Below are positions 4,805-13,833 of a DNA stretch of 64,000 nt, piece after piece. The notes under the pieces were generated by a model that was not told the DNA's origin, searched no databases, and saw nothing but the letters and a program-made list of their open reading frames with translations. The stretch's first letter is position 1, and every line of letters starts with the position of its first letter. A program made the translations under genes and the position numbers. Source of the stretch: Halegenticoccus soli (GTDB taxonomy: Archaea; Halobacteriota; Halobacteria; Halobacteriales; Haloferacaceae); the NCBI RefSeq assembly GCF_002844195.1, contig NZ_PEND01000001.1, positions 806,001 through 870,000 on the forward strand, read 5' to 3'.

Positions 4805-5251
4805 ACCCTTGGCTCGGGAAGGAGGCGTGTTGAAGATGTTGGTTCGCGCCGCGTGCGATTTGAATCGCCCGGGGGTCGGTGCAGACTCCACGCTCATCGG
4901 CGAGACGCCCGAGCAGTGCGGCCACGGCGTCGAAGTCGTCTCTCACGTTCGAACAGTGCGGGGGCGACGGAGCCGGGTGCTCGCCACTTCGCGGCTCGAC
5001 CGCCCCGCGATCGCCGGATTCGCTGCGGCGCTTCAGCGCGTCTCCGAGGCGGGCGGGAGAGACGCGGGGCGACCGCGTCCCGGTTTTCGAGAAAGGGTGC
5101 TCGATGACGCGCGTTCGGGCGGATGAATCCCATTTCGATATACTCAATCGCCCGTTGAGACGAGCTGGAGCCGCCAAAATAGAAGCGGGGCGGTCGGCCG
5201 GTTCGAAGATCAAGAGAAAAGCATTACTTAGTGATCCTCGAATCGTGCGCC
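4805..5251. other. Gene-free divergent intergenic region
   Basis: About 450 bases between two divergent genes. Overlapping frames on both strands are Arg/Ser-rich and look like GC shadows. An AT-rich patch near 5130-5146 and another at 5216-5230 are the likely promoter elements of the downstream antiporter. Confidence 0.6.
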
Positions 5252-6847
5252 ATGGCAACAGAGTTCGGTGCGCTGTCGCTCGTACCGCCGCTGCTCGCGA
5301 TCGCCCTCGCGATCGTGACGAGACGGGCGCTCCTGTCGCTGTTTCTCGGCGTCTGGATCGGCGGCATCATCGCCGTGCAGGGGCTCGGGATCGTACAGAC
5401 GTTCGACTGGATCATCTCGTCGATCACCTCCAGCTTCAACGCGCAGGTCATGGTGTTCATCTTCCTGCTCGGCGCGGGAATCGCGCTGATCTGGCGGATG
5501 GGGGGATCGCTCGCGGTGGCGAAGTGGGCGACCGAGCGGCTCGATTCGCACCGCAAGGTCGGCGTCGCCGCCTGGTTGCTCGGCATGGTCTGGTTCTTCG
5601 ACGACTACGCCAACACGGCGATCGTCGGAAGCTCGATGAAGAACATCGCCGACGAGATGCGGATGTCGCGCGAGAAGTTCGCGTACATCCTCGATTCGAC
5701 GGCCGCGCCGGTCGCCACGTTCGGCATCTCCAGCTGGGTGGCGTACCAGATCAGCATGATCAACACCGGCTACAAGGCGGCGGGGATCGCCGACACCGCA
5801 CCCTCCGCGTTCGTCACGTTCCTCCGGAGCATCCCCTACAACGTGTACTGCCTGCTCGCGGTGCTCATGGTCGGGATCATCGTCATCACGCGCCGGGACT
5901 TCGGCGAGATGCTCGACGCCGAGACGCGGGCGCAGCGGACGGGGAAGGTCACCCGCGACGACGCGAAGCCGCTTCAGAGCATGAAGGAGGAGCTCGGCAC
6001 CGTCGAGGTCGACCGGCCGATGCTCCGGCTGTTCGTCCTCCCGGTCGCGGCGCTGGTGGCCGTCGTCGTCGCCGGCGGCGTCTGGACCGGCTACGCCCCC
6101 GGGCGGGACGCGCTGGCGATGGCCGAGAACGCCGACTTCATCGGCGCGCTCGTCTGGGGCTCGTTCGCGATGGTCGCGACGGGGATCGTGCTCGCCCGCG
6201 CGTACGACATCCTGACGCTGGACGAGGCGATGGACACGGTCGTCGACGGCTTCGGCATGATGTTGAACGCCGTCAGCATCCTCGTGCTCGCGTGGTCCAT
6301 CGGCGCGGTCGCGGAGGCGCTCGGAACCGGGGCGTACGTCACCTCGCTCGCGGAGGGGATCGTCACGCCGACGCTGCTGCCGATCGTCATCCTCTTCGCC
6401 GCCGCGATGGTCTCCTTTTCGATCGGCACCTCCTGGGGGACGATGGCGCTCGTGACGCCCGTCGCGATTCAGATGGCCTGGGAGATCTCCGGGGGATCGG
6501 CCGAGATGCTCGCCGTCGCCTCGGGCGCCGTGTTCAGCGGCGCGATCTTCGGCGACCACTGCTCGCCCATCTCGGACACCACGATCCTCTCGTCGACGTT
6601 CGCCGGCTCCGACCACATCGACCACGTGCGGACGCAGATCTACTACGCGGTCACGGTCATCCTGGTGGCTGCGGTCGTCTACCTGCTCTACGGCGTGACC
6701 GGGCTCCCGCAGCTGGTGCTGCTGCCGGTCGGTCTCGGGCTCCTCGTCGCGACGGTGTACGCCCTCTCCGAGTGGGACGCCCGTCGCAAGGAGCTCTCGC
6801 CGACTTCCGCCTCGGGGCCCGTCGGGGAACGGGCCGGCGACGACTGA
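5252..6847 (+). CDS. nhaC: NhaC-family Na+/H+ antiporter
   Basis: Cytoplasmic-membrane ion antiporter (531 aa, about 12 membrane segments) of the ion-transporter superfamily. It shows LFLGVWIGGII near the N-terminus, the intramembrane WFFDDYANTAIVGSS motif and the hallmark FGDHCSPISDTTILSS at about residues 435-450. NhaC-like proteins exchange Na+ for protons and sometimes an organic substrate, so the substrate is not certain. A GTG lies seven codons upstream (5231); the ATG at 5252 (MATEFGALS) gives the expected family N-terminus. It is transcribed alone, and a small winged-helix gene follows on the same strand. Confidence 0.88.
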   Translation: MATEFGALSLVPPLLAIALAIVTRRALLSLFLGVWIGGIIAVQGLGIVQTFDWIISSITSSFNAQVMVFIFLLGAGIALIWRMGGSLAVAKWATERLDSHRKVGVAAWLLGMVWFFDDYANTAIVGSSMKNIADEMRMSREKFAYILDSTAAPVATFGISSWVAYQISMINTGYKAAGIADTAPSAFVTFLRSIPYNVYCLLAVLMVGIIVITRRDFGEMLDAETRAQRTGKVTRDDAKPLQSMKEELGTVEVDRPMLRLFVLPVAALVAVVVAGGVWTGYAPGRDALAMAENADFIGALVWGSFAMVATGIVLARAYDILTLDEAMDTVVDGFGMMLNAVSILVLAWSIGAVAEALGTGAYVTSLAEGIVTPTLLPIVILFAAAMVSFSIGTSWGTMALVTPVAIQMAWEISGGSAEMLAVASGAVFSGAIFGDHCSPISDTTILSSTFAGSDHIDHVRTQIYYAVTVILVAAVVYLLYGVTGLPQLVLLPVGLGLLVATVYALSEWDARRKELSPTSASGPVGERAGDD

Positions 6848-7076: not shown

Positions 7077-7457
7077 GTGACGGCGCTGGACGTCGCTTCG
7101 GACGATGAGACGCCCGCGGTGCAGGCGGTGCTCGACGCCCTCGACGACGCGGACTGCCGGGCGATCGTCCGTCGCCTCGACGGGGCGATGACGGCGCGGG
7201 AACTCTCGGAGGCGTGCGACATCCCGCTGTCGACGGTCTACCGGAAGCTCGATCGGCTGACCGAGGCGTCGCTCGTCGACGAGCGGCTCGACCTCCGCGC
7301 CGACGGTCACCACACGAGGCGGTACCGGCTCGCCTTCGGGCGAGTGCGCTTCGCGCTCGGAGACGACCGCGGGCTGGAGGCGACGATCGCGCGGCCGTCC
7401 GACTCGGCGGACGAACGGCTCGCCCGCCTCTGGTCCGAGGTTCGGACGGGCCGGTGA
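7077..7457 (+). CDS. Winged-helix transcriptional regulator (ArsR-like)
   Basis: A 126-residue single-domain DNA-binding protein with a GTG start. The fold is read from VLDALDDADCRAIVRRLDGAMTARELSEACDIPLSTVYRKLDRLTEASLVDERLDL, a helix-turn-helix with recognition helix STVYRKLDRL, followed by a wing containing ADGHHTRRYRL. Haloarchaeal members of this group are often called ArsR or helix-turn-helix domain proteins. It faces the halocyanin gene across 73 bases (convergent), so control of either neighbour is only a guess. Confidence 0.78.
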   Translation: MTALDVASDDETPAVQAVLDALDDADCRAIVRRLDGAMTARELSEACDIPLSTVYRKLDRLTEASLVDERLDLRADGHHTRRYRLAFGRVRFALGDDRGLEATIARPSDSADERLARLWSEVRTGR

Positions 7458-7530
7458 CCGCGGCCGCGGTGCCGGACGTCGCGCATGCGCAGGGTCGGCT
7501 ACGCGACGACCGCGTACTCGAAGCGTCCGG

Positions 7531-8064
7531 CTACTCGACGACGACCGCGCCCTTCATCCCCATCGTCTCGTGCGGAACGCAGACGTACGTGTACGTTCCG
7601 GCGGCGTCGAACGTATGTTCGAAGGTGTACCCCTTCTCGTCGGTCATCTCGCTCTCGAAGCTCCCGTCCTCGGCGGCGACGTTGTGAGCGCCGCCCTCGC
7701 CGGTCCACTCCCAGACGACCGTCGTTCCCGTCGAAATCTCGACCGCGGGCGGGTCGAACGCGTACCCCCCGCCGTTTCCCTGCGCGCCGACCGTCACGGT
7801 CACGCTGTCCGACCCCGTCTCGTCGACGACGCCCGAGTAGTTGTCGACGCCCTCGAACCAGGCGTCGAGATCGGATCCGCCGCTCGATTCGCCGGCGGTC
7901 GAGTCCGTCGCGGGCTCGCCGGTCGCCCCGTCGGTCCCGGCGTCGTCGGTCGGCGACTGCCCGCCGTCCGATCCGGAACAGCCCGCGAGGAGCGTCCCGC
8001 CGATGGCGACCGCCGCGGTCGTCCGTACGAAGTTCCGCCTGCTGCGTGGGAGTTCGCCTGTCAT
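7531..8064 (-). CDS. Halocyanin-type blue copper lipoprotein
   Basis: Exported small copper protein (177 aa) that carries electrons outside the membrane, plausibly to nitrite reductase NirK. A Tat-type signal (SRRNFVRTT) leads to a lipobox ending LLAGC near residue 29, then an acidic Ser/Thr/Asp linker. The plastocyanin fold is at the C-terminus. Type-1 copper ligands are visible as His in GGAHNV, then Cys, His and Met in YVCVPHETMGM. Location about 700 bases from nirK supports a role in denitrification. Confidence 0.92.
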   Translation of the reverse strand: MTGELPRSRRNFVRTTAAVAIGGTLLAGCSGSDGGQSPTDDAGTDGATGEPATDSTAGESSGGSDLDAWFEGVDNYSGVVDETGSDSVTVTVGAQGNGGGYAFDPPAVEISTGTTVVWEWTGEGGAHNVAAEDGSFESEMTDEKGYTFEHTFDAAGTYTYVCVPHETMGMKGAVVVE

Positions 8065-8461
8065 GGTTCGTCTCCTCTACGGGTTAACGTAGCCGTCGAC
8101 CGGACATGTAGCCGGACGCCAATTCCCGGGCGGTGGGAATCGCCGGAGGTCGTTTCGGCCCCTCGATCGACCTCCAGTCCGCGGAGATCGATCGAACTCC
8201 CGTCCGCGAAGAGAGATCGAAACCGGCGAGGCGGGACGGACGAATCGGAACGGGTGGAACGAGGGGCGACCGTGGGCGGGCGGCGGCCGTCACCGCACAC
8301 CGCCGGACCGTCTCTCACCCCCTGTACGCGTTCTCACGCCGTGAGAAGCGGGACGGAGACTTTATCCATGGCGGTCGAACCTGAATCATACAGCGATCCA
8401 GGGGAGACGCGCGCGCTCGCCGCGGAACAGTCAGCGGATCGAAGAGGCGAATTCCGGAGCC
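8065..8461. other. Gene-free divergent intergenic region
   Basis: About 400 bases between the halocyanin gene and the broken small gene. No convincing frame was found. A TATA-like ctttatcc at about 8360 followed by an ATG opens a frame with no family-like sequence, so it is not called. Confidence 0.5.
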
Positions 8462-8677
8462 ATGTTAGACGACAACACCGACCGCGAACCGAACGGCGAT
8501 CCCGCGATCGACGGGGAGAACGGGTCCGAAACGGGAATCGCCGTGGCGACCGTCGAATCCGACGACGGCTCCGCGGAGTGTACGTTGTACCCCGCGGACG
8601 CTACCGGCATGGAGCTCATGACGACGTAGATCACGGCGGACGAAGGGTCGTTCGTCGACCTCGAATCCGTCCGGTGA
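8462..8677 (+). pseudogene. Small haloarchaeal protein gene interrupted by an in-frame TAG
   Basis: The ATG at 8462 starts a 55-codon frame ending ...TLYPADATGMELMTT at a TAG (8627-8629). The same frame then continues ITADEGSFVDLESVR to a TGA at 8675-8677. The joined product resembles a family of small haloarchaeal proteins (DUF7511-like, recalled from memory) whose core reads TTW-ITA-EGS. The TAG stands where that family has Trp (TGG), a one-base change. Read-through cannot be excluded, but TAG is an ordinary stop elsewhere in the window, so a nonsense mutation is the simplest reading. Confidence 0.6.
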
Positions 8678-8770
8678 CGCGCGGGTCGAAACGCCGGCCG
8701 AAGGAGGGGACCACTCGCACACCGGCAGGAGGTGGAGGATCCGAAAGCCGGGCGAAAGAAGCGCGGCCGA

Positions 8771-9835
8771 TTACCGCTTCGGGTTCGGATCGAAGACGTC
8801 GGGGTTCTCGGGTCCCTCGGCCCGCACGACCGCCATGCACCCTTTGCTCGCGACGCGGCTCAGCGCGTGATCGACCAGCTTGAAGTCGCCCGGCACCGGG
8901 AAGCTCATCGTCGCGATGGTCGTACTCCCCGGGGGGACGGGCGTCGTCTGGATGTGCGTCTGCGGCTCCGTCGTCAGCGACCCCTGCGGCCACAGCTCCT
9001 CCCAGACGCTCCCGATCGGGTGGAAGCTGCTCGTCAGGTTCGGCCCGCCGGTCACGAAGTAGACGCGCGCCGTCTCGCCCGTCTTCACCTTCATCGGTCC
9101 GTGGCGGTCGGGCGTGATGGCGTACGGTTCGCCGTTCATCAGCACGTGCGACGGCTCCTCGCGGGCCATCGCGTCAGCGTCGAACTGGAAGCCGCCGTCG
9201 CCCTCCTTCGCGTACAGTTCGTGCTGTCCGAGGTAGAACTCGTGGTCGACCTCGGGAAGCCCCTCCTCCGGCTCGACGAGGATGATCCCGAACATCCCCG
9301 CGCTGATGTGCATGTCGAGGTTCGGAACCGCGCAGTGGTAGATGTACGCGCCGGGGTAGGTCGCTTTGAACCGAAGGCGCTTCGTCTCGCCGGGCATCGC
9401 CATCGTCGCCTCAGCGCCGCCGCCGGGTCCGGCGACCGCGTGGAAGTCGACGTTGTGCGGCATCGCGTTCCCCTCCGGGTTCCGGAACGTGAGATTCACC
9501 GTGTCGCCCACGCGAACGCGGACGAACGGCCCCGGTATCTGCCCGCCGTACGTCATGTAGTCGAACGTCGTTCCGTCTTCGAGTTCGGCGGTCACCTCCT
9601 CCGCTTCGAGGGTGACGTCGACCGCCGCCGGTTCGCTCCGGTCGATCGGACCGGGGATGTCGGTCGGGTCCGCCGCCACCCTGTCGACGACGGGTTTCGT
9701 CGCCTTCCTCGACGGTTCCGCATCGGTAGTCGGGGTCGAGTCCGGCCCCGCGTTCGACGCGCTGCACCCCGCGACCGCGACCATTCCGCCCGCGCCGACG
9801 CCCTGAAGGACGCGCCGCCGCGTTGTTTCGAGCAT
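8771..9835 (-). CDS. nirK: Copper-containing nitrite reductase NirK
   Basis: Reduces nitrite to nitric oxide outside the membrane (354 aa, usual family length). An N-terminal RR signal ends in a lipobox VAVAGC near residue 24. Two cupredoxin domains follow. Type-1 copper ligands are seen in MPHNVDFH, in YIYHCAVP and in DMHISAGM. Type-2 and catalytic residues are the Asp and His of HNVDFH, the His before the Cys, and the domain-2 His in SSFHPIGSVWEE. A Shine-Dalgarno-like GAGGTGA precedes the ATG. The neighbours halocyanin, MoaD-like protein and nitric oxide reductase form a denitrification set. Two dyads lie upstream (9880-9927). Confidence 0.95.
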   Translation of the reverse strand: MLETTRRRVLQGVGAGGMVAVAGCSASNAGPDSTPTTDAEPSRKATKPVVDRVAADPTDIPGPIDRSEPAAVDVTLEAEEVTAELEDGTTFDYMTYGGQIPGPFVRVRVGDTVNLTFRNPEGNAMPHNVDFHAVAGPGGGAEATMAMPGETKRLRFKATYPGAYIYHCAVPNLDMHISAGMFGIILVEPEEGLPEVDHEFYLGQHELYAKEGDGGFQFDADAMAREEPSHVLMNGEPYAITPDRHGPMKVKTGETARVYFVTGGPNLTSSFHPIGSVWEELWPQGSLTTEPQTHIQTTPVPPGSTTIATMSFPVPGDFKLVDHALSRVASKGCMAVVRAEGPENPDVFDPNPKR

Positions 9836-9879
9836 TCGTAGTCACCTCACAGGCGTAGATTCGAGCCGAACCGGCTTCA

Positions 9880-9901
9880 AACTGGAAACTCGTTCCCAGT
9901 T
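9880..9901. promoter_or_regulatory. 22-bp imperfect dyad in the nirK leader
   Basis: The outer arms AACTGG and CCAGTT are perfectly inverted and the inner bases also pair, giving 18 of 22 positions symmetric. It lies 45-66 bases before the nirK ATG, downstream of a TATA-like gctataacg (minus strand, about 9938-9945). It could be an operator or an mRNA hairpin. No binding evidence. Confidence 0.45.
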
Positions 9902-9915
9902 GACGAGAAGGGGCG

Positions 9916-9927
9916 CGAACCGGTTCG
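9916..9927. promoter_or_regulatory. CGAAC-N2-GTTCG palindrome upstream of nirK
   Basis: Perfect 12-base palindrome CGAACCGGTTCG about 80-90 bases before nirK, one of three similar sites in the denitrification block (also 10430-10441 and 12976-12987). A CGAAC/GTTCG inverted repeat has, as I recall, been linked to the Haloferax regulator NarO, though with a wider spacer. Confidence 0.45.
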
Positions 9928-9987
9928 GGCGGGGCGTTATAGCCGTGTCGGCAGCGCGTAACACGCCCGGTCGGCGGACCGCGGCCG

Positions 9988-10392
9988 TCAACAGCAGAAC
10001 ATGAACGGGTACATCAGCGCGACGCGGTCCCCGTCGGCGAGCGCCGTGTCGAGGCCATCGAGGTTCTCGTTGAACCGGCCGTTCACGCAGACGCGGGCGT
10101 AGGCGCGCGTCTGATCGCCCTCGGGGTTCTTCCGCCACGTTCCGGGGAGTTCGTCCGGCGCCGGCGCCCACCCCCGCGCCGTGGCGTCGGCCTCCGTCTC
10201 CGCCATGAGGAGGTCTTCGACGTCGTGCTCCTCGAAGAACGCGTCGAGAAACTCCCGGAGCGTGGTCCCTCGAAAGGTGACGGTGAGCCGGGGGGTTCCG
10301 ACCGCCGACCGCACGTGTCCGGTACAGACCACCTCGACCGTCGTCTCTCGGTCGTCAGTCCGCGCCGCTCCGTCCGCCGTCGATCGGGCCAT
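9988..10392 (-). CDS. MoaD/ThiS-like (ubiquitin-fold) protein with a Cys-Cys C-terminus
   Basis: A 134-residue protein with the beta-grasp pattern of MoaD/ThiS sulfur carriers: VEVVCTGHVRSAV, the helix TLREFLDAFFEEHDVEDLL, then RAYARVCVNGRFNENLDGLDTALADGDRVALMYPFMFCC. Ordinary sulfur carriers end in Gly-Gly, which is adenylated and thiocarboxylated. This one ends FMFCC, so that chemistry is unlikely unless it works differently. It sits between nirK and the nitric oxide reductase, suggesting a denitrification-specific job such as cofactor or copper handling. That role is inference from context. Confidence 0.75.
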   Translation of the reverse strand: MARSTADGAARTDDRETTVEVVCTGHVRSAVGTPRLTVTFRGTTLREFLDAFFEEHDVEDLLMAETEADATARGWAPAPDELPGTWRKNPEGDQTRAYARVCVNGRFNENLDGLDTALADGDRVALMYPFMFCC

Positions 10393-10429
10393 ACCCCCGT
10401 TTCGCCGCCGCGATCCGAGAGCGGTGCGC

Positions 10430-10441
10430 CGAACGTGTTCG
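10430..10441. promoter_or_regulatory. CGAAC-N2-GTTCG palindrome upstream of the MoaD-like gene
   Basis: CGAACGTGTTCG, identical to the copy at 12976-12987, lying 38-49 bases before the ATG at 10392. That is where an archaeal activator would sit beside the promoter of a leaderless gene. Confidence 0.45.
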
Positions 10442-10527
10442 TCCCGGACCGCGGGAGCGATCGAACGGTCGACGAGCCGTCGCAGAGAAACAGGACCGGC
10501 GGAACTGGACGGGGCCGGAGAAACCGA

Positions 10528-12825
10528 TCAGTCGTCGCTCTCCGCGAGCACGCGATCGGCGATCGGCTGCTCCTCGGGCGCGCGTCCGGGCGCGGTGACC
10601 TCACGCTGGCCGAGGAGTTTGTGAACCACGTCGTAGCCGAAGAGCAGCGTTCCGACGATGATCAGAGTGTCGCCGGGCAGCCGCGCCCAGAACAGGAGCT
10701 GGACGAGTTCGCCGTTGTAGAAGGCGAGGCTGCGCGCGGCGGCGTAGCTCTCCGTGAACGCGGTTTCGAGCTGCAGGAAGCCCACCGGGAGGACGGAGAC
10801 GAACACCATGAGCGCCAGCCCGACGTTCCAGCACCAGAACGCCCAGCGGAGGCGGCGCTCGCTCCACGTTCCCCGCTCGGTCGTGATCCGGAGCATGTAC
10901 GTGGCCATGCCGAGCGCGAGGAAGCCGAACGCGCCGAACATGGCGGCGTGGGCGTGGCCGACCGTGAGGTACGTCCCGTGCTCGTAGTAGTTGACGAGCG
11001 GGAGGTTGATGAAGAATCCGAGCACGCCCGCGCCGACGAAGTTCCAGAACCCGCTGGCGATGATGAACGCGAAGGGCAGCGCGTACGGGAACGACTCGCC
11101 GCTGGTGGCGAGCGCCCGGTACTCGTTTATCGCCTCGAAGAGGATGAGCACGAGCGGGATGAGCTCCAGCGTCGAGAACACGGAGCCGAGCGGCACCCAC
11201 ACGTCGGGCTGGCCGATCCACCAGTAGTGGTGGGAGACGCCGATGACGCCGGAGCCCATCACGAAGAGCGCCTGGAACATCACCGCCTTCTCGGCCGAGC
11301 GCTTCGACAGGAGGTTCATGCTGACGAGCGTGAGGCCGACGATGGCGACGATGAAGAACTCGAAGGCGCCCTCGACCCACATGTGGACGACCCACCAGCG
11401 CCAGAACTCGGTGATCACGATGTTCGTCTTCGGGGTGTAGAACATCCCCGCGGTGAAAAGCAGCGCGATGGAGCCGCCGGCGTAGAGGATCATGTGCGCG
11501 AGGCCGTACGGCGACTCCCTGTCGAGGAGCGGCTTGAACCCCCGCGCGACGAGCGCGGCCCAGAAGACGAACCCGGCGAGGAGGCCGACCTGCCAGACCC
11601 GGCCCACTTCGAGGTATTCGAGCCCCTCGTTGCCGAGCAGCCACCACAGTTCGCCGCCGAGGTACCCGTTCGCGCCGAGCCAGATGCCGCCGAGGCCGCC
11701 GACGGCGACGACGACGACCGCGCCGAGCAGGAGGTTCACGAACGTCCGCTGGCGCTTCGGCTCCCTGCCGGTGAGAAGCGCCGGGAGGAACAGGCCGGCC
11801 CCGAGCCAGAGTGTCGCGATCCAGAGGATCCCGAGGTCGAGGTGCCAGGTCTTCGCGATGGAGAACGGGAACAGTCCGACGAAGTCGATCCCGAACAGCT
11901 CGCCGAGCCCGAAGAAACCGTCGCGCTCGACGTAGTAGTGCGCGAGCAGCGCGCCGAGGAACACCTGCGCGACGAACAGCAGGGCGGCGACGGGGACGAA
12001 CCGCACCGCGGCCGTCTGTCCGGGGAACAGGTCGATGTCGTCGGGGTGCGGCACGGTGATCCCCGCCGTGTCGGGTTCGGGGAGCTCCACCGACTTGTAG
12101 AGCCAGACGCCGATCCCCGCGCCCGCGACGAGCAGCACCATCGAGATGACGCTCCACGTCATGGACGAGGCGGGCGGGACGTTGCCGGCGGCGGGCTGGT
12201 ACGGCCAGTCGTTCGTGTAGGTGTGGTCGGTTCCGGGACGCTCGGTGTGGGAGATCCACGCGGTCCAGAGCGCGAAGTCGGCGAACCGGCGGGCGTCGGC
12301 CCCGGAGTCGATCGTCCCGGCGGGGACGCCGCGTTCGAGGTCGCCCTCGTGGTACCGGTCGACGTACTCCTCGCGCACCCGTTCGTGGGCGTACAGCTCC
12401 GCGGCGGAGTACTCGATCCGCTCTCCCGACCGACTGTCTTCGAGTTCGGCCCTGACCGCGGCGTCGATCACGGCCCGCCGATCGTCGCCGAGGTCCGCGT
12501 ACGCCCGGTCGTAGCGCTCCTGCGCGTAGTACTCGCGCATGTGCTGCACTTTGAGATCCAGGGCGTCCGCCGTGTAGTCCACGCCGAAGTACGCGCCGTT
12601 GCCGAGAATCGAACCGTGGTTCATCAGTCCGTTCGCCTGGAACGTCTCCTTGCCGTCGCGGACCTGCTCCGCCGTCACGACTGTTTCGCCGTCGGGGCCG
12701 ACGATCGTCTGCGGGATCGGCGGCGACTGCTGGTAGGAGTACCAGGCGCCGAACCCCATCACGACGAGGTTGAACACGAAGACCGCGACGAGGAGCTTCG
12801 CGAGGGTTTTCCGTCTCACTTTCAT
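10528..12825 (-). CDS. norB: Quinol-dependent nitric oxide reductase, large subunit (qNor type)
   Basis: Reduces NO to N2O in the membrane (765 aa). The length and the N-terminal extension (IVGPDGETVVTAEQVRDGKETFQANGLMNHGSILGNGAYFG) are typical of single-chain quinol-oxidising enzymes. About 14 membrane segments of the haem-copper oxidase fold follow. Haem and non-haem iron histidines are seen in TWHLDLGILWIATLW, WWVVHMWVEGAFEFF, GVSHHYWWIG and VGHAHAAMFGAFGFLALGM. The ATG at 12825 (MKVRRKTL) is chosen, since the 41 codons upstream are not membrane-protein-like. It removes the toxic product of NirK. Confidence 0.95.
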   Translation of the reverse strand: MKVRRKTLAKLLVAVFVFNLVVMGFGAWYSYQQSPPIPQTIVGPDGETVVTAEQVRDGKETFQANGLMNHGSILGNGAYFGVDYTADALDLKVQHMREYYAQERYDRAYADLGDDRRAVIDAAVRAELEDSRSGERIEYSAAELYAHERVREEYVDRYHEGDLERGVPAGTIDSGADARRFADFALWTAWISHTERPGTDHTYTNDWPYQPAAGNVPPASSMTWSVISMVLLVAGAGIGVWLYKSVELPEPDTAGITVPHPDDIDLFPGQTAAVRFVPVAALLFVAQVFLGALLAHYYVERDGFFGLGELFGIDFVGLFPFSIAKTWHLDLGILWIATLWLGAGLFLPALLTGREPKRQRTFVNLLLGAVVVVAVGGLGGIWLGANGYLGGELWWLLGNEGLEYLEVGRVWQVGLLAGFVFWAALVARGFKPLLDRESPYGLAHMILYAGGSIALLFTAGMFYTPKTNIVITEFWRWWVVHMWVEGAFEFFIVAIVGLTLVSMNLLSKRSAEKAVMFQALFVMGSGVIGVSHHYWWIGQPDVWVPLGSVFSTLELIPLVLILFEAINEYRALATSGESFPYALPFAFIIASGFWNFVGAGVLGFFINLPLVNYYEHGTYLTVGHAHAAMFGAFGFLALGMATYMLRITTERGTWSERRLRWAFWCWNVGLALMVFVSVLPVGFLQLETAFTESYAAARSLAFYNGELVQLLFWARLPGDTLIIVGTLLFGYDVVHKLLGQREVTAPGRAPEEQPIADRVLAESDD

Positions 12826-12920
12826 GCCGATTGGATGTCCCTCCGGGTTCGACTTGTACGGCGGTCGCGATTCCCAGTCGGTGAGAGCGCGCCCGAACTG
12901 ATTCGGCCGTTCGTTGACAC

Positions 12921-12962
12921 CCGTCGGTTCGCGTCCGCCGGTTCGCATCCGCCGGTTCGGCT
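12921..12962. repeat. Three 14-base tandem units upstream of norB
   Basis: Three consecutive units of the form CCGYCGGTTCGSNT lie between the norB start and the CGAAC palindrome. They may be binding sites or slippage-derived repeats. Confidence 0.5.
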
Positions 12963-12975
12963 CCGCGACGGTCGC

Positions 12976-12987
12976 CGAACGTGTTCG
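12976..12987. promoter_or_regulatory. CGAAC-N2-GTTCG palindrome between norB and the HemA-like gene
   Basis: CGAACGTGTTCG within a longer GCCGAACGTGTTCGGC dyad. It is 41-52 bases before the ATG at 13028 and about 150 bases before norB, so it may serve the HemA-like gene or both. Confidence 0.45.
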
Positions 12988-13027
12988 GCGGAAGCTTCGG
13001 GGCGGAGAGCGCAGAACGGACCGACGG

Positions 13028-13450
13028 ATGCCGGACAGTCGACAGGCCCGCGCTCGAAACGCCCGAGAGGCGATCGCCGAATTCGCCGAAGTCGGCCCGG
13101 GACGCCCCGGAGAGAACGGAGATCCGGGGAAGAGCGCTCCGGGGGTGGACGACCCGGAACCCGACTATCGCGCAGCCGCCCCGGACGCCGCCGCCGCAAT
13201 CGCCGCGATGGACGGGCGCGCGCGGCGAATCGCGGACGCCGAGGTCGACGCCGCGCTCGCGAAGCTGGAGGCGGCCGGCGGCGTGACGTCCGGACAGCGG
13301 GAGGCGGTCGAGGCCCTCGCGACCGGTATCGTCGCCGGTCTGCTCGACCCGCCTCGGCGTCGCGTTCTGGCGGCGGCCCGGCGCGGGGAAGGGGACGCGA
13401 TCGCCGCCGCCGTTCGGCTGTTCGCCGACGAGAGAGGCAGGGAGCGGTGA
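13028..13450 (+). CDS. Stand-alone glutamyl-tRNA reductase dimerisation-domain-like protein
   Basis: A 140-residue protein matching only the C-terminal dimerisation segment of HemA: ARRIADAEVDAALAKLEAAGGVTSGQREAVEALATGIVAGLLDPPRRRVLAAAR followed by an alpha-helical end with AVRLFADE. The catalytic and NADPH domains are absent, so it cannot be a reductase. The N-terminal 60 residues are low-complexity and Gly/Pro/Asp-rich. It lies divergent to norB. A role in haem supply or in a regulatory dimer is possible, but only context supports that. Confidence 0.72.
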   Translation: MPDSRQARARNAREAIAEFAEVGPGRPGENGDPGKSAPGVDDPEPDYRAAAPDAAAAIAAMDGRARRIADAEVDAALAKLEAAGGVTSGQREAVEALATGIVAGLLDPPRRRVLAAARRGEGDAIAAAVRLFADERGRER

Positions 13451-13590: not shown

Positions 13591-13833
13591 ATGTCCGTCA
13601 CCCTGTACGCGCTCGACGGGTGCCCGTACTGCGAGAAGGTACACGATGCCCTGCGGGACCGCGACGTCGACTACGAGACCGAGTGGGTCGAAGCGCTCCA
13701 CTCCGAACGCGACGAGGTGAAGCGGGTCAGCGGCCAGCGCGGCGTGCCGGTGCTCGTCGACGACGAGCGCGGCGTCACGATGGCCGAGAGCGAGAGGATC
13801 GTCGAGTACGTCGACGCGACGCTGGCGCGATGA
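13591..13833 (+). CDS. Glutaredoxin-family protein
   Basis: An 80-residue thioredoxin-fold protein with active site CPYC at residues 10-13 (ALDGCPYCEKV), the cis-Pro motif GVPVLV and the C-terminal helix ERIVEYVDATLA. These reduce disulfides or bind iron-sulfur clusters in the cytoplasm. Its TGA overlaps the ATG of the cobalamin adenosyltransferase (ATGA), so the two genes are translationally coupled. Confidence 0.9.
   Translation: MSVTLYALDGCPYCEKVHDALRDRDVDYETEWVEALHSERDEVKRVSGQRGVPVLVDDERGVTMAESERIVEYVDATLAR

Follow-up and report, generated by a model that had tools for sequence, protein, structure and literature searches.

An in-frame TAG interrupts a DUF7511 gene

The window, by which we mean the whole stretch of 64,000 nucleotides of the Halegenticoccus soli genome analysed here, contains a short gene of the DUF7511 family (Pfam PF24351), a family of unknown function, which lies among genes related to nitrite and nitric oxide reduction (Table 1). 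Translation from the ATG at 8462 yields 55 residues, the TAG, a further 15 residues (ITADEGSFVDLESVR) and the TGA at 8675-8677, which stands at the usual C-terminus of the family; the TAG is the sole stop inside this frame before the TGA. With the stop read as X, the frame matches the Pfam DUF7511 profile at 66.4 bits (residues 28-71, profile positions 4-47 of 47), while the 55 residues alone reach 37.3 bits (residues 28-55, profile positions 4-31 of 47), and the frame thus scores above the curated cut-off of 27 bits with or without its tail. This bears out the original prediction that the frame continues through the TAG with family-like sequence on both sides, and since the tail adds 29 bits of DUF7511-like sequence it is not a chance open frame. 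A complete domain is not encoded, as the TAG occupies the codon of the invariant tryptophan. Judged from its sequence, the frame is a broken DUF7511 copy, whose 55-residue product would not be a complete member of the family, and the point matters for annotation in that the open frame gives a truncated 55-residue protein. No family was matched in NCBIfam, and a literature search for "DUF7511" returned no paper naming it.

Table 1. Features of the window in the neighbourhood of the DUF7511 gene
Feature	Position	Strand	Remark
Na+/H+ antiporter gene (PF03553)	5231-6847	+	In G001, the orthologous gene directly precedes the DUF7511 gene
HTH, halocyanin-like copper protein, copper nitrite reductase (nirK), MoaD-like and nitric oxide reductase (norB-like) genes	7077-12948		On both sides of the DUF7511 gene
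Palindrome TTCTCACGCCGTGAGAA	8331-8347		Precedes the DUF7511 gene; a near-identical copy precedes the G001 orthologue
DUF7511 (PF24351) gene	8462-8677	+	72 codons with the closing TGA counted; the TAG is codon 56
In-frame TAG at the invariant tryptophan position of the family	8627-8629	+	
Conserved tail, C-terminal third of the DUF7511 domain	8630-8677	+	15 codons and TGA
Glutaredoxin-like gene	13591-13833	+	In G001, the orthologous gene directly follows the DUF7511 gene

Tryptophan stands at the TAG position in all relatives read

The codon was compared in 47 relatives, six from the same genome (two of the six, L013 and L014, retained although they fall under the DUF7511 cut-off) and 41 from elsewhere in the taxonomic family. 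These were drawn from 61 fetched loci, of which 14 were omitted: our gene's own copies (L001, L009), duplicates (L004, L005, L010, L011, L040, L050, L054), a Nitrococcus contig of doubtful relation (L007) and weak matches under the cut-off (L015 to L018). Sixteen residues from the C-terminus, 47/47 carry a tryptophan encoded by TGG, and neither a TAG at this codon nor a natural C-terminal end at this point occurs in any of them. The expected conservation of a tryptophan at the TAG position is therefore confirmed, as is its "TTW-ITA" context, the congener G001 reading MDLMTTWITAGEGSFVDLDSVR; the proposed single-base change is likewise supported, the TGG of the relatives being one base away from TAG, and the family alignment that had been called for gave no relative stopping naturally where the window's frame does. 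DUF7511 proteins share a CT.YP core, a W.(S/T)A segment and an L-rich C-terminal end, all recognisable in the window frame, which differs from every relative read in its TAG for the invariant tryptophan.

An alignment of 34 of the 47 relatives has five invariant columns, and the part lost after the TAG carries three of them (W62, A65 and L73 in the numbering of the G001 orthologue). That loss, together with the absence of naturally short members among the 47, argues against the 55-residue product being a functional short form in a copy that no longer needs its tail. We consider such a short form improbable, even though the part before the TAG alone exceeds the Pfam cut-off and the palindrome upstream of the gene is kept.

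A congener carries an intact orthologue in a shared neighbourhood

G001, the only congener compared, encodes an intact 77-residue DUF7511 orthologue (L062:8272-8505) that starts with MLDD like the window gene and has a nearly identical C-terminus. It is flanked by a Na+/H+ antiporter gene and a glutaredoxin-like gene, 83.6% and 82.5% identical, respectively, to their counterparts in the window. The three genes are direct neighbours in G001 and their order, antiporter - DUF7511 - glutaredoxin, is kept in the window. The two loci differ in that the G001 gene is intact and stands without the surrounding nirK, norB and halocyanin genes: none of the five HTH, halocyanin-like, nirK, MoaD-like and norB-like genes had a match in L062 (19 kb of G001 compared). 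Several haloarchaeal plasmids carry relatives of nirK and norB, and the names nirK and MoaD are themselves taken from plasmid annotations. G039, from a different genus within the family, likewise has a DUF7511 gene near an antiporter gene, 43.7% identical (L064:9419-11772), and the DUF7511-antiporter neighbourhood may be older than the window's genus. Separately, the glutamyl-tRNA reductase dimerisation domain is the lone match (37.2 bits) of a 178-residue ORF at 12914-13450, whose first 35 bases lie over the beginning of the norB-like gene on the opposite strand.

The palindrome TTCTCACGCCGTGAGAA occurs at a single place in the genome when up to one mismatch is allowed. Its loose form, TTCTC-N5to8-GAGAA, was found upstream of 5/45 DUF7511 genes, a count that includes the G001 orthologue from which the loose form was taken, and in 0/45 downstream control stretches. 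On this pattern, the palindrome is a possible, putative operator.

An AlphaFold model of the G001 orthologue, built on the 34-sequence alignment (mean pLDDT 69.2, pTM 0.41), predicts strands at 33-38 and 44-49, a helix at 55-60, a strand at 64-66 and a helix at 73-76. The stop maps to residue 62 of the orthologue, ahead of the last predicted strand and helix, and with moderate confidence the short product would be without both. The model did not point to a function by its fold, as neither a PDB fold search (best E 0.23) nor a sequence search with the orthologue alignment for a solved relative (best E 0.36) gave a convincing match.

TAG regularly ends genes in this genome

Of 31 picked gene anchors in the window, 30 end inside it, with TGA in 21 cases, TAG in seven and TAA in two; the seven include the halocyanin-like gene beside the DUF7511 gene. 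The DUF7511 paralogues L003 and L008 also end in TAG directly after the family C-terminus, and so do the weaker relatives L013 and L014 of the same genome. TAG is thus an ordinary stop codon in this genome.

Neither PylS nor a CUA tRNA, the machinery expected for UAG recoding, was found in the genome search. The best PylS match scored 22.3 bits against a cut-off of 178.15, which was exceeded by one of 14 control genomes. A CUA anticodon was absent from the 46 of 47 Rfam tRNA matches to which ARAGORN assigned an anticodon (some with introns allowed), two of which, L116 and the second match of L106, are odd tRNA-like elements of doubtful anticodon; the remaining match, at L117, has no CTA within its 85 bases. 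The tRNA-Trp gene, located by pattern, carries the anticodon CCA and a 101-base intron, presumably the reason why the Rfam search did not list it, and other tRNAs with long introns could be missed in the same way. Decoding of the UAG by pyrrolysine or a suppressor tRNA was rejected on these results. A structured read-through element was rejected as well, since the RNA after the UAG (8630-8730) folds no better than its shuffles (z -0.15, 200 shuffles, folded without pseudoknots). As a side observation, L116:153-249, L106:338-427 and L117:154-238 are tRNA-like and have common acceptor, D and T arms with differing anticodon and variable arms; they may be decayed or mobile tRNA-like genes.

The original prediction had offered read-through as one option, by which a suppressor tRNA, pyrrolysine or a programmed event would give some full-length protein. 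The conserved tail and a frame that runs on to a stop at the usual family C-terminus would fit it, and an in-frame UAG followed by conserved sequence recalls the pyrrolysine read-through of methylamine methyltransferases. Here, in contrast, the protein family is another one and the relatives have tryptophan, in addition to the PylS and tRNA results above. Passages of a review on archaeal recoding name selenocysteine and pyrrolysine for stop read-through (PMC8211752). With TAG ending nearby genes and paralogues, and with ordinary RNA downstream, the option is not supported; the in-genome controls argue against recoding in this case, and we regard read-through as very unlikely. Partial read-through by a non-pyrrolysine route, which would make this a haloarchaeon producing both a short and a full-length DUF7511 protein, is if anything slightly less likely still.

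The tail has kept its protein sequence

Compared with G001, the 15 codons of the tail retain 13 residues and show 11 base differences, 10 of them at third positions. The 34 domain codons before the TAG retain 20 residues, with 28 base differences (13 third-position), and the 21 aligned N-terminal codons retain seven residues; in the antiporter gene 446/531 residues are kept and 155/256 base differences fall at third positions. Expressed per codon, third-position differences are more frequent in the tail (10/15) than in the domain before the TAG (13/34) or the antiporter (155/531), though the numbers are small. The residues kept in spite of these third-position differences show that selection on the protein sequence acted on the tail until recently, over most of the period that followed the split from the congener. 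As the tail has not yet decayed, the stop would be young relative to this split, and the freshness of the break that had been proposed is in line with the 13/15 residues kept. Tail conservation as such is compatible with any of three cases: the mutation is recent, the sequence is in error, or the tail is still translated.

A recent nonsense mutation is the favoured explanation

A sequence or assembly error would mean that the strain's gene is intact and the deposited base wrong. It would account for an intact start and tail, for a codon one base away from that of the relatives and for the lack of visible further decay. Good assemblies seldom contain isolated substitution errors, which counts against it, and there is no clear excess of broken genes in the window. 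When G001 ORFs (L062 and L118 to L121) were compared with the window, 8/40 best matches, at most partly overlapping and coming only from L062, L119 and L120, included a stop. Besides DUF7511, five of the seven others had no Pfam match (E 1e-5) and may be shadow ORFs; in the remaining two the stop precedes the first Pfam domain and is thus probably ahead of the true start. Further stops (TGA, TAG and TAA) were seen in ORFs overlying stronger matches, which were taken as shadow ORFs. No other Pfam-domain gene is cut by a stop among the genes common to the window and the G001 pieces compared, and the nature of the seven other matches led us to reject stop errors or recoding as a general feature of the window. 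Altogether, we hold an error at this base to be rather unlikely, more probable all the same than a functional short form.

The explanation that we favour, and consider probable, is that a recent nonsense mutation inactivated one of the five DUF7511 copies of this haloarchaeon. The mutation would have turned the TGG of the invariant tryptophan into TAG, and translation would be expected to end there, as it does at TAG elsewhere in the genome. The resulting 55-residue product would be without the last third of the domain, that is the invariant tryptophan, the predicted third strand and the predicted C-terminal helix, and would probably be unstable or inactive; the event itself appears to be young when set against the divergence from the congener. 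As in a nonsense pseudogene, the frame holds an internal stop where close relatives carry the gene intact, and the locus resembles other nonsense-interrupted prokaryotic pseudogenes in having one in-frame stop and two recognisable halves. It differs from them in that no further decay is visible. Against a recent nonsense mutation stand the lack of a second disruption and the still conserved upstream region with its palindrome, which would fit an error in the sequence, or a gene that remains in use, equally well, and the higher third-position divergence after the TAG (10/15 codons), for which the mutation does not account. Either a fresh break of the gene or an error in the sequence most likely lies behind the TAG. 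The locus is otherwise unremarkable, a nonsense-interrupted member of a small-protein family with several copies, and the interruption, if real, is recent.

Of the five places in the genome that score above the DUF7511 cut-off, only the window's has an internal stop, so that the four other, intact copies could make the loss of this one tolerable. On its own, a single broken copy in a small-protein family that is uncharacterised and has four other members above the cut-off in this genome is of small significance. DUF7511 is also represented in Haloferax volcanii, which served as a control in the genome search. Among the matches listed from 170 genomes, which do not include the window's own row, no DUF7511 row has an internal stop, and a DUF7511 match is present in 146 of the 170 genomes searched.
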